Below are positions 152 through 58,567 of a stretch of DNA of 64,000 nucleotides, piece after piece (the stretch's first letter is position 1; every line of letters begins with the position of its first letter). Source of the DNA: Chryseobacterium sp. FP211-J200 (GTDB lineage Bacteria; Bacteroidota; Bacteroidia; Flavobacteriales; Weeksellaceae). Both the position numbers and the translations under genes were made by a program. The notes beneath the pieces are model-generated. The model was not told the origin of the DNA. It saw only the letters and a list, made by a program, of their open reading frames with translations, and ran no database searches. The DNA is taken from positions 1-64,000 of the forward strand of contig NZ_LSHB01000004.1 in the NCBI RefSeq assembly GCF_001643375.1, given 5' to 3'.

Positions 152-1594
152 ATGACTGGAGATCTATTGAACCATTATCGACCATTGGAAAACGTTTTTG
201 ATGAGATGATGTCCGAGGCGTTTATTAGGAAGCACTATCAGGAATTTATCCGTTCGTTTGAGAAACTGGATGTTTCCGAAATGGACCAGAAAAGTGAACT
301 GGCCAAAAAACTTTTTATGACGCAGGGCATCACTTTCACTGTTTATAATGACGGCGAAGGTATCGAGAAAATATTTCCTTTTGATATCGTTCCCAGGATC
401 ATCCAGTCGGCAGAGTGGGAATTTATAGAAAACGGGATCAAGCAACGTTTGAAAGCTTTGAATATATTTCTGAAGGACGTTTATCATCAGCAATTCATTT
501 TAAAAGATGAGATCATTCCATCGTCATTAATATACAGCTGTCCGAATTATCTTCGGGAAATGATCAATGTGGATGTCCCTTTTGATATCTACACCCACAT
601 CAGCGGAATCGACCTGATCAGAGACAACGACGGAAGTTATTATGTTTTGGAAGATAATCTCAGGACGCCTTCGGGAGTAAGTTATATGCTCGAGAACCGC
701 AAAATGAGTTACCGACTTTTCCCCAATATTTTGCCGAACATCAAAGTAAAACAAGTCAATAATTATCCTGATCTATTAATTAAAAATCTACTCTCACTCG
801 GAAGACAGATCAGTGCGAAACCAAATGTCGTTCTTCTCACACCAGGAATCTACAATTCCGCTTATTTTGAACACACGACTTTAGCGAGATTAATGGGAAT
901 CGAATTGGTAGAGGGTCGCGATCTTGTGATCCAGAATCATATGGTCTATATGAAAACGACGAAAGGACTCAAAAAAGTGGATGTCATCTATAGAAGAGTT
1001 GATGACGAGTTTTTGGATCCATTGGTCTTTCAAAAAACGAGTGTTCTAGGTGTTCCAGGATTGTATCATTCTTACAGAAAAGGAAATGTGGTCATCGTGA
1101 ATGCAATGGGAAATGGTGTTGCCGATGACAAAGCGATCTATTCTTACGTTCCCGATATGATCCGATATTATCTAGGCGAAGAACCACTCCTGAAAAGCGT
1201 TCCAACTTACCGAATGGAAAATATGGACGAACGGAAATTCGCTATCGAGAATATGGATAAAATGGTCATCAAAAAAACCAACGAAAGTGGCGGTTACGGA
1301 ATGCTGATCGGCGACGTTGCAACTGACGAGGAAATCGCAGAATTCACAAAACAGATCAACCTGAATCCAAGAAATTACATAGCCCAGCCAATTATTAAGC
1401 TATCAACTTCGCCGTGTTATATCAATGGTGTTTTGCAACCAAGACGAGTGGATCTGCGTCCTTTTGCTTTGTACGGCCCAGACGGAATCGATATCGTTCC
1501 CGGTGGATTGACGCGAGTGGCGATGAAGGAAGGTTCCATCGTCGTAAATTCCTCACAAGGTGGCGGAAGTAAAGATACTTGGGTCGTAGATTAA
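152..1594 (+). CDS. Circularly permuted ATP-grasp protein (DUF404/DUF407 type)
   Basis: The 480-residue cytoplasmic protein has the features of the circularly permuted ATP-grasp type 2 family: YRRVDDEF near residue 280, a Lys-Lys plus glycine-rich ESGGYGM loop near 376-384, VDLRPFALYG near 433-442, and a C-terminal NSSQGGGSKDTW block. The family is predicted from genome context to form amide bonds, probably on a peptide or amino acid substrate; the reaction is unknown. It is followed 45 nt later by an alpha-E protein and then by a transglutaminase-like protein, which is the classic family neighbourhood and supports one operon. The ATG at 152 gives the expected length and N-terminus. The family call is firm; the function is not. 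Confidence 0.93.
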   Translation: MTGDLLNHYRPLENVFDEMMSEAFIRKHYQEFIRSFEKLDVSEMDQKSELAKKLFMTQGITFTVYNDGEGIEKIFPFDIVPRIIQSAEWEFIENGIKQRLKALNIFLKDVYHQQFILKDEIIPSSLIYSCPNYLREMINVDVPFDIYTHISGIDLIRDNDGSYYVLEDNLRTPSGVSYMLENRKMSYRLFPNILPNIKVKQVNNYPDLLIKNLLSLGRQISAKPNVVLLTPGIYNSAYFEHTTLARLMGIELVEGRDLVIQNHMVYMKTTKGLKKVDVIYRRVDDEFLDPLVFQKTSVLGVPGLYHSYRKGNVVIVNAMGNGVADDKAIYSYVPDMIRYYLGEEPLLKSVPTYRMENMDERKFAIENMDKMVIKKTNESGGYGMLIGDVATDEEIAEFTKQINLNPRNYIAQPIIKLSTSPCYINGVLQPRRVDLRPFALYGPDGIDIVPGGLTRVAMKEGSIVVNSSQGGGSKDTWVVD

Positions 1595-9227: not shown

Positions 9228-9254
9228 AATTTTTTTAAATTTAATTCATACTTA

Positions 9255-9285
9255 TTTGGTGGGAATTAAATAATTTATATATTTG
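9255..9285 (+). promoter_or_regulatory. Consensus Bacteroidetes promoter of the DUF4395-NIL operon
   Basis: TTTG at 9255-9258 and TATATTTG at 9278-9285 are separated by exactly 19 nt, the ideal Bacteroidetes layout. Transcription should start near 9289, giving a leader of about 137 nt before the ATG at 9426. Confidence 0.8.
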
Positions 9286-9288
9286 CAA

Positions 9289-9405
9289 CAGAATTAGAAT
9301 TAAATGAACCGCATCTTCTCTCAAATCATAATGTGTAACTCCAAGTAGATCATTGGATAGGAGAGAATATGTCATAAGCTTTACCTTTCCGGTAGAGCTT
9401 TTTTT
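9289..9405 (+). ncRNA. Candidate structured leader with attenuator
   Basis: The predicted leader has a long-range stem (TTCTCTC with GAGAGAA, at about 9314-9320 and 9361-9367). Inside it is a 5-bp hairpin (TCCAA/TTGGA). A strong terminator hairpin follows at 9376-9400. Promoter, folded region, terminator and then a coding region 20 nt later is the layout of a riboswitch or attenuator. It does not match the SAM-I, TPP or cobalamin core motifs I know. It could instead be a small stand-alone RNA. Confidence 0.5.
9376..9405 (+). terminator. Intrinsic terminator/attenuator inside the leader
   Basis: Two 10-nt arms (9376-9385 and 9391-9400) pair fully with one G-U pair around a 5-nt loop, and five U follow at 9401-9405. 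It lies upstream of the coding region and downstream of the promoter, so it should end most transcripts unless something prevents it from forming. Confidence 0.8.
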
Positions 9406-9425
9406 ATTTAAAAATTTTAGGAACA

Positions 9426-9857
9426 ATGGATCAATCAAATAAATTCTACACGGACGAAAATACAGTTAGATCAACGGCATTTTTTGTAGTCATTGTTCTT
9501 GCGGTCGCCCTTTTTTTCAAGTGGCCGTATTTGGTATTACTCTTAGTTTTTGATTTTATTATGAGGGCTTTAGGCTTATCAATTTCTCCTTTAGCCCTTT
9601 TTTCAAAATCGATCTCGAAAATATTTGGATGGAAGGCGAAACCAATCTTCGCTGCACCGAAAAGATTTGCGGCGACCTTGGGTTCTCTTTTTACATTGTT
9701 AGTTTTTTTACTAATGCTTAATGGATACTATGATTCAGCTTTCGCAGTGGGATTTCTGCTGATCATCTTAGCAAGTCTGGAAAGTTTTTTCAAAGTTTGC
9801 GTCGGCTGCTATCTTTATCAATTCATTGTGATTCCCATCCAAAATAAATTTAAATAA
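9426..9857 (+). CDS. DUF4395 membrane protein
   Basis: A 143-residue protein with about four hydrophobic segments and the DUF4395 hallmarks: an N-terminal DENTVR stretch, the APKRFAATLG motif after the second membrane segment, and a C-terminal VCVGCYLY cysteine pair. The function is unknown; family members are often encoded near thioredoxin- or rhodanese-type genes, so a redox or sulfur role is possible. It lies 20 nt after a terminator hairpin in the leader and is followed 30 nt later by the NIL-domain gene, so both should respond to the same leader RNA. Confidence 0.88.
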   Translation: MDQSNKFYTDENTVRSTAFFVVIVLAVALFFKWPYLVLLLVFDFIMRALGLSISPLALFSKSISKIFGWKAKPIFAAPKRFAATLGSLFTLLVFLLMLNGYYDSAFAVGFLLIILASLESFFKVCVGCYLYQFIVIPIQNKFK

Positions 9858-9887: not shown

Positions 9888-10199
9888 ATGATCTATCCAC
9901 AAGAAACGCAGAAAGGAGGCTTCTTTCACAAGCCCGCAAAGGAAATAATCCTGGAAATAGAACTGAATGGTAAAATAAGATTCGACATCCTGCTTTACAC
10001 GATCTACAACCATTACAAGGTCAGCTACAAGATCGTGAACGCCCATATCGAATATCTGAATGGCAATAACTTCGGCAACGTAAAACTTCTTCTGAATATA
10101 ACGGATGACGAAATAGATAAGATTGAAAATTACCTTGGTGAATATAAACTGATGAGTTGCAAAATACCAGTCCTACAACAAACAAAGGAAGCTTCATAA
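9888..10199 (+). CDS. Stand-alone NIL domain protein
   Basis: A 103-residue soluble protein whose residues about 30-90 (from VSYKIVNAHIEYLNG to DEIDKIENYLGEY) resemble the NIL domain, the small ferredoxin-like C-terminal substrate-sensing domain of the methionine transporter ATPase MetN. In MetN it binds methionine and inhibits transport. Here it is free, with no ATPase or transporter gene nearby, and is paired with DUF4395 behind a putative attenuator. A methionine- or sulfur-linked role is an inference. The stop codon lies inside a terminator hairpin. Confidence 0.75.
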   Translation: MIYPQETQKGGFFHKPAKEIILEIELNGKIRFDILLYTIYNHYKVSYKIVNAHIEYLNGNNFGNVKLLLNITDDEIDKIENYLGEYKLMSCKIPVLQQTKEAS

Positions 10200-10219
10200 T
10201 GAGCTTCCTTTAATTTTTT
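10184..10219 (+). terminator. Terminator of the DUF4395-NIL operon
   Basis: The arms AAAGGAAGCT and AGCTTCCTTT (10184-10193, 10202-10211) pair perfectly around an 8-nt loop that contains the stop codon, followed by AATTTTTT. Confidence 0.85.
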
Positions 10220-58352: not shown

Positions 58353-58425
58353 TGGTTTCTCCAGGGATCGAACCAGGGACACATGGATTTTCAATCCATT
58401 GCTCTACCAACTGAGCTAAGAAACC
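58353..58425 (-). tRNA. tRNA-Phe (GAA)
   Basis: A 73-nt cloverleaf on the minus strand. The acceptor arm is GGTTTCT with discriminator A, the D loop AGCTCAGTTGGTAGAGC, the anticodon loop TTGAAAA with anticodon GAA, and the T arm GGTTCGATCC. CCA is not encoded. It is identical to the second copy 69 nt away. Confidence 0.97.
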
Positions 58426-58494: not shown

Positions 58495-58567
58495 TGGTTT
58501 CTCCAGGGATCGAACCAGGGACACATGGATTTTCAATCCATTGCTCTACCAACTGAGCTAAGAAACC
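58495..58567 (-). tRNA. tRNA-Phe (GAA), second identical copy
   Basis: The sequence is the same 73 nt as at 58353-58425, including anticodon GAA and no encoded CCA. The two form a tandem pair ending at the hairpin terminator at 58320-58351. Confidence 0.97.

Follow-up and report, generated by a model that had tools for sequence, protein, structure and literature searches.

Classical attenuators carry runs of regulatory codons, and such a tandem run is not required in every attenuator. Short ORFs with cysteine codons have been described upstream of the cys operons of Actinobacteria (Seliverstov et al. 2005, PMC1262725); the available sections of that paper give no conserved terminator hairpin and describe the regulation as translation attenuation. 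Cysteine-responsive leader peptides are named for mycobacteria in the title of a later study (Canestrari et al. 2020, as cited in PMC13236596). Within the Bacteroidota, the available extracts on the Bacteroid-trp RNA (RF01692; PMC2864571, PMC6414381) propose leader-peptide attenuation of an amino acid biosynthesis operon, and those on Flavobacterium psychrophilum (PMC9723704) give clues of leader peptides on amino acid operons. The excerpt of a 2010 survey (PMC2965389) lists leader peptides only outside this phylum. No report of Cys/Met attenuators in Bacteroidota was found in the extracts of the largely open-access literature searched.

The locus described here lies in the window, that is, the whole stretch of 64,000 nucleotides of DNA that was analysed. 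The genus of its host, from which 23 genomes were compared, is taken to be Epilithonimonas; close orthologues from named organisms mostly bear this genus name or Chryseobacterium. An earlier note on this DNA had reported a promoter, a leader with a TTCTCTC/GAGAGAA stem and a 10-bp terminator ending 20 nt ahead of a DUF4395 gene, which is followed by a gene for a NIL-domain protein. A check of the sequence found all of these elements at the positions given, with a leader of about 112 nt. Two further features, an upstream ORF (uORF) of 14 codons within the leader and a dyad over the −35 region, are absent from that note. The features of the locus are as follows.

9240–9270, no strand assigned: promoter dyad TTTAATTC-N15-GAATTAAA, core TACTTATTTGGT, spanning the −35 region (conservation; related sites at sulfur genes)
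9255–9285, forward strand: promoter TTTG-N19-TATATTTG, read from the sequence as TTTG at 9255–9258, a 19-nt spacer and TATATTTG at 9278–9285 (sequence; conservation in 23/23)
9304–9348, forward strand: uORF MNRIFSQIIMCNSK, a putative leader peptide, with Met at 9331–9333, Cys at 9334–9336 and the stop codon at 9346–9348 (conservation, pN/pS)
9311–9322, forward strand: 5′ arm of the P1 hairpin (region 1), within the uORF, pairing with 9361–9372 (fold, alignment)
9355–9365, forward strand: antiterminator segment GGATAGGAGAG, which can pair with 9379–9390, to the exclusion of P1 and the terminator (duplex energy)
9361–9372, forward strand: 3′ arm of the P1 hairpin (region 2) (fold, alignment)
9376–9405, forward strand: intrinsic terminator with arms at 9376–9385 and 9391–9400, loop at 9386–9390 and U run at 9399–9405
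9426–9857, forward strand: DUF4395 gene, 143 aa, helical, with an invariant C-x-G-C-Y (Pfam, alignment, structure prediction)
9888–10199, forward strand: NIL-domain gene, 103 aa (Pfam)

The promoter consensus of Bacteroidota is TTTG/TAnnTTTG, and we take the promoter at 9255–9285 to be of this type. Its TAnnTTTG element is retained in all 23 relatives. The identities of the two structural genes were borne out by Pfam (5.3e-26 for DUF4395 and 7.3e-8 for NIL). Directly after the NIL gene, a stem at 10183–10212 has U runs on both strands and is probably a two-way terminator common to this gene and the convergent gene of the EPSP-synthase family. Elsewhere in the window lie a Flavo-1 RNA (RF01705; 16855–16965, reverse strand, 63.5 bits) and two adjacent tRNA genes (58353–58425 and 58495–58567, reverse strand) with identical covariance scores.

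A uORF of 14 or 15 codons is present at all 22 Epilithonimonas loci with a NIL gene, and a named relative (locus L080) provides a 23rd leader. Each of the 23 uORFs contains M-C-[NKH]-[STPA]-[KN]-stop, and the last Cys codon is located exactly 12 nt 5′ of the stop codon in every one. Among the 18 distinct sequences, pN/pS is 0.375 in the uORF frame, compared with 1.75 and 2.25 in the other two frames, and falls to 0.26 over codons 8–14. The Cys codon may be TGT or TGC and the stop codon TAA, TAG or TGA, and the sole indel is an in-frame triplet. Judged from these substitutions, the uORF is under selection as a peptide. A uORF of translated appearance with regulatory codons thus stands ahead of the terminator in 23/23 leaders. 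The Epilithonimonas leaders have no tandem run of regulatory codons: 22 of the 23 hold a single Cys codon and L080 holds two, with one to three Met codons preceding. Such runs are present in related leaders of other lineages. At two loci (L009 and L017) the leader is kept directly before the NIL gene, with no DUF4395 gene in between.

The leader from 9294 to 9412 (119 nt) folds at −33.2 kcal/mol, against a mean of −18.55 (sd 3.31) for dinucleotide shuffles (z −4.43), and none of 200 shuffles matched it. The terminator stem at 9376–9400 consists of 10 pairs. It is fully paired ahead of the first structural gene in 21/21 distinct sequences, formed in 100% of alignment cells, and three of its pairs show changes on both sides. 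The P1 stem (TTCTCTC/GAGAGAA), whose TTCTCTC arm consists mostly of Phe-Ser codons of the uORF, is paired in 77% of cells in the model-fitted alignment of the same 21 sequences; this alignment (A4) still scores the P1 of the L012 clade as partly unpaired. For the whole structure 88.2% of cells are paired, compared with at most 57% when the structure is slid along the alignment. RNAalifold found the terminator alone on the MAFFT alignment A1, because MAFFT misaligns the L012 clade. In this clade both P1 arms differ, being TTTTCTCAC/GTGAGAAAG, and the serine codon remains TCN. As a duplex, P1 outranks 95% of shuffles in 18 of the 22 sequences. Folded as a lone hairpin, P1 has a z under −2 in 13 of the 23 and does not outperform shuffles in L012–L014, L016, L017, L020 and L080. 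The divergent L016 and L080, with P1 at shuffle level, yet keep the uORF, the antiterminator potential and the terminator.

The antiterminator segment of the window forms 10 pairs at −9.4 kcal/mol, which is equalled by 4.7% of shuffles. In all 23 sequences pairing is possible between a segment starting 6–10 nt past the stop codon and the terminator's 5′ arm plus loop, and takes up 5–9 of the arm's 10–11 nucleotides. The 5% level against shuffles is reached in 8 of the 22 Epilithonimonas sequences (mean z −1.26), and three of the eight (L002–L004) are identical in this region. Since the register varies between clades, the antiterminator was assessed by duplex energies and by swaps of pieces rather than as one structure. 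When pieces were exchanged among the 20 unique sequences, the native P1 was matched by 21 of 5000 permutations, the native antiterminator by 3 and the native terminator by none, figures that are optimistic as the sequences are related. In folds of the stalled state, the complete terminator is more stable for most sequences among the folds listed.

We propose that the leader is very probably a ribosome-mediated transcription attenuator that gauges the supply of cysteine, probably together with methionine. An ORF of 14 codons with Met and Cys codons is followed by a conditional terminator, so the ribosome probably serves as the cysteine gauge. RNA polymerase would start near 9292 and a ribosome would enter the uORF. 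If the cysteine and methionine tRNAs are charged, the ribosome would reach the stop codon, where its footprint would overlap the start of the antiterminator. After its release P1 would sequester the antiterminator segment, and for this reason the terminator would form and transcription would end near 9405. With too little charged Cys-tRNA (or Met-tRNA), the ribosome would stall at AUG-UGU, 12 nt before the stop codon, and mask the 5′ arm of P1. The segment GGAUAGGAGAG would then be available for pairing with the terminator's 5′ arm and loop, and DUF4395 and NIL would be transcribed. A ribosome positioned at a stop codon extends about 10 nt past it. The geometry agrees with the trp model: at the stop codon the ribosome would touch the antiterminator, and at Met-Cys, 12 nt earlier, it would cover the P1 arm instead. 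This reading is built on the coding conservation of the uORF, the fixed distance from Cys codon to stop codon, the terminator, the predicted mutually exclusive pairings and the Cys/Met leaders found elsewhere; the transcription start, translation and stalling, the direction of the response, the relative weight of cysteine and methionine, the identity of the repressor and the functions of both proteins are inferred.

A different role of the same peptide has to be weighed. ErmCL and TnaC are arrest peptides that sense a small molecule in the ribosome tunnel, and if the nascent leader peptide acted in this way the Cys codon would be no gauge of supply. Residues besides Met-Cys, namely IFS[QH], are indeed conserved in most uORFs, as an arrest peptide would have it. 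The IFS codons, however, double as the arm of P1, and the Met-Cys is retained where L016 has SYS and L080 has NCS in place of IFS. Leaders elsewhere are alike in their Cys/Met content without a common sequence, save for the resemblance of one leader at L140. An arrest peptide is therefore regarded as improbable.

Control at the promoter concerns the second feature absent from the earlier note. The dyad core TACTNATTNGGT is identical in 21 of 23 relatives. Dyad-like sites are located at the promoters of the host's cysHD operon, of TauE/SafE with DUF1634, of metY in three relatives, and of a TonB receptor gene with a SAM riboswitch in the host genome and in G007. A SAM riboswitch was confirmed at metY in both loci scanned (L159 and L172). 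A pattern built from the dyad sites already seen, which the window's own site does not fit, gave 37 matches in the 23 genomes compared with 8 for the reversed pattern. The dyad alone is not enriched in the host genome, where a looser pattern gave 9 matches against 5. Because the dyad recurs at sulfur genes, the sulfur or methionine signal guessed in the earlier note is supported, and the DUF4395-NIL operon is therefore probably a member of a sulfur regulon. In the genus g20, NIL-only genes (L023, L024 and L025) stand without DUF4395 and without a leader of uORF and terminator; a related dyad of the type CTACTAATTTGGTAG, degenerate in L025, precedes their promoter. The host's cysHD locus (L143) also holds a Flavo-1 RNA (RF01705) at 282–392 with 62.4 bits.

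The dyad at 9240–9270 is a candidate site for the repressor of this regulon, which would probably act there as an additional control at the level of the promoter. A common dyad at sulfur-gene promoters (cysHD, metY, TauE, TonB with SAM riboswitch), as in a CymR-like Rrf2 regulon, was found. In G063, a relative, an Rrf2 gene immediately precedes cysHD, a dyad-like site lying between them, and the host genome encodes a 49% identical Rrf2 protein elsewhere (contig C83, 121913–122296), which scores 108 bits for the Rrf2 family (cut-off 73). This protein falls short of CymR, reaching 67 bits against a CymR cut-off of 195. The identity of the putative repressor is a guess.

The dyad could also regulate alone, the uORF and terminator being incidental or yielding a small RNA. 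The strong conservation of the dyad speaks for this, as does the cysHD promoter of the host, which has a related dyad and no attenuator. The fixed geometry of Cys codon, stop codon and antiterminator, the purifying selection on the peptide and the recurrence of the same design elsewhere argue against it, and we consider it somewhat less probable still than an arrest peptide. The least probable alternative, for which we see hardly any room, is a metabolite-binding riboswitch (for SAM, SAH, methionine or cysteine) with the TTCTCTC/GAGAGAA hairpin as aptamer: the stable fold, the terminator and the genuine SAM riboswitches carried by other genes of the sulfur regulon are in its favour, but the constant positions track codons, the hairpin is at shuffle level in several members, and neither a conserved aptamer core nor any Rfam family was found in the leader at gathering or relaxed thresholds (best E 1.1, 17 bits against a threshold of 50). 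Of the earlier note's alternative, "riboswitch or attenuator", the attenuator thus finds support in the conserved Met-Cys uORF and the terminator of 23 sequences, and the riboswitch, with no Rfam match, does not.

The proposed attenuator precedes two genes of uncharacterised products. The C-x-G-C-Y motif of DUF4395 is invariant over 26 sequences, and no solved structure matched its predicted structure (pLDDT 83) at E ≤ 0.001. Orthologues of the NIL gene are present in 22 of 23 genomes of the genus, and the protein resembles the C-terminal domain of MetN. DUF4395 adjoins metN, which encodes an ABC ATPase with a C-terminal NIL domain, in operons of L126 and L096 that start with an EamA transporter gene. 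The stand-alone NIL protein of the window may be a remnant of MetN.

The distribution of the leader was examined at two levels. A covariance model of it (R1) matches 22 of 23 genus genomes at E ≤ 3e-12, by construction; L080, an outside test, is matched at 88.4 bits, and the best match in 297 other genomes of the family has an E of 3.9e-4. The conserved structure upstream of homologues to which the earlier note had looked is therefore present within Epilithonimonas but was not found at comparable score in those 297 genomes. The leader had no match in the plasmid collection. DUF4395 is present in 19/395 genomes of the order sample and in 96/296 of the phylum sample, and leaders of like design, mostly different in sequence, occur elsewhere. 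In a Weeksellaceae genus (g10) the leader MNCCC[SP]FK is found at 4/5 DUF4395 loci of the short type, and no Cys leader was seen by eye at the long-type loci L120, L150, L154 and L155. The DUF4395 gene of Parapedobacter defluvii (L087) carries the leader MRSTNISIISLNAVMCCMYMCDTC, and the DUF4395 scan gave leaders with CCCC (L236) and CCHCC (L248). Cys/Met leaders head the EamA-DUF4395-metN operons of L126, which has two, and L096. Forty-two DUF4395 loci are named, about 26 of them outside Epilithonimonas, and among those only L087 and L096 have such a leader.

The same design is found at sulfate assimilation genes. The g10 locus L140 has two leaders in tandem, the first of which, MKQIISNIAMCCCPLN, resembles the Epilithonimonas form MKQIFSQMAMMCNTN. 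In the genus g35, the five closest cysH homologues (68–100% identity) carry one or two leaders, such as MKIQNNNMMMCMCCSENEGLYATC and MNTITNMSIILLTSTACMMMMCCMQNFARGRLLYCL. The script passed 6 of the 23 g35 cysH loci, and L276 lacks any upstream sequence; the 18 loci other than the five closest gave one filter pass, probably false. One of the 6, L260, was judged to lie inside the upstream gene. In 19 hand-chosen leaders from 13 loci, a set that leaves out the relatives L152 and L153 and the duplicate L225, a stretch downstream of the first Cys codon pairs with the 5′ arm of the terminator; this pairing is superior to 95% of shuffles in 12 of the 19 (mean z −2.9).

Automatic scans gave few matches. 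The scan of loci for Cys uORFs returned 38 candidate ORFs, many of them nested, and some matches were judged to be due to chance, including one opposite the window's aminotransferase gene (L031, L127). With a terminator filter, the DUF4395 loci gave 3/30 in sense (one false, the window's own locus) against 1/30 in antisense, and the cysHD loci 1/30 against 0. A relaxed Cys-plus-Met filter without terminator gave 3/29 against 0 and 3/42 against 0, and 2/31 against 1 for cysHD; L249, which passed the relaxed filter, has no terminator. With so few matches in small scans, the recurrence rests on individual clear cases and not on demonstrated enrichment.

Several other elements were noticed in these regions. 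Behind the promoter of g35 cysH genes that have no Cys leader (L261, L262, L266, L269, L270 and L274) lies a conserved element near ATCTACTAAACCGATAGGGTAATAGATT, and variants of it precede other genes (L210, L211, and L114 with DUF4395); no Rfam match was obtained in the four loci scanned. In the leader of a TonB receptor gene (L157), the short ORFs MNCCHTY and MFNCGCD.. flank a SAM riboswitch region behind a promoter dyad, and MNCCHTY also occurs in the TonB receptor leader of L164, so that double control by SAM and Cys codons is possible in these leaders. In L256 (genome G928), the region upstream of the cysH leader holds a SAM-II riboswitch (66 bits) on the opposite strand, at 1057–1116 (reverse).

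Taken together, we hold with slightly better than even confidence that the locus belongs to a widespread sulfur control of Bacteroidota, undescribed in the papers searched. Ribosome-read attenuators with Cys/Met codons and an intrinsic terminator, sometimes two in a row, would act on operons for sulfate assimilation, methionine import and DUF4395, in addition to a shared promoter dyad and to SAM riboswitches at other genes of the regulon. As parts of the same proposal, the leader of Epilithonimonas, with its one Cys codon, would be a reduced version, and NIL a MetN remnant of an ancestral DUF4395-metN operon. An apparent orphan riboswitch becomes a testable cysteine/methionine gauge, and through it the functions of DUF4395 and the stand-alone NIL protein would be linked to the supply of sulfur amino acids. 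It also suggests that Cys/Met-codon attenuators control the sulfate assimilation and methionine-uptake operons of some Bacteroidota.

The proposed attenuator can be compared with several known systems. Like the SAM riboswitch RF00162, which sits on other dyad genes of the genus, it is a sulfur control of the terminator type, but the leader has no RF00162 match. The Bacteroid-trp RNA RF01692, in the extracts available, has Trp codons, whereas the Epilithonimonas leader has Met-Cys; the candidate operons of F. psychrophilum may, from the available part of PMC9723704, include Cys operons. With the cysteine leader peptides of Actinobacteria, as far as the sections and titles cited above describe them, it shares a short ORF with Cys codons upstream of a sulfur-linked operon. 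Unlike the leaders of PMC1262725, as its available sections describe them, it has an intrinsic terminator with an alternative pairing. It differs from the trp, his and leu attenuators of Proteobacteria and Actinobacteria in its Met-Cys codons, with a single Cys codon in 22/23, in its occurrence in Bacteroidota and in a P1 that is not kept in every member. With these attenuators it has in common an intrinsic terminator, a uORF containing regulatory codons and, as predicted from the sequence, pairings 1:2, 2:3 and 3:4 that exclude one another.
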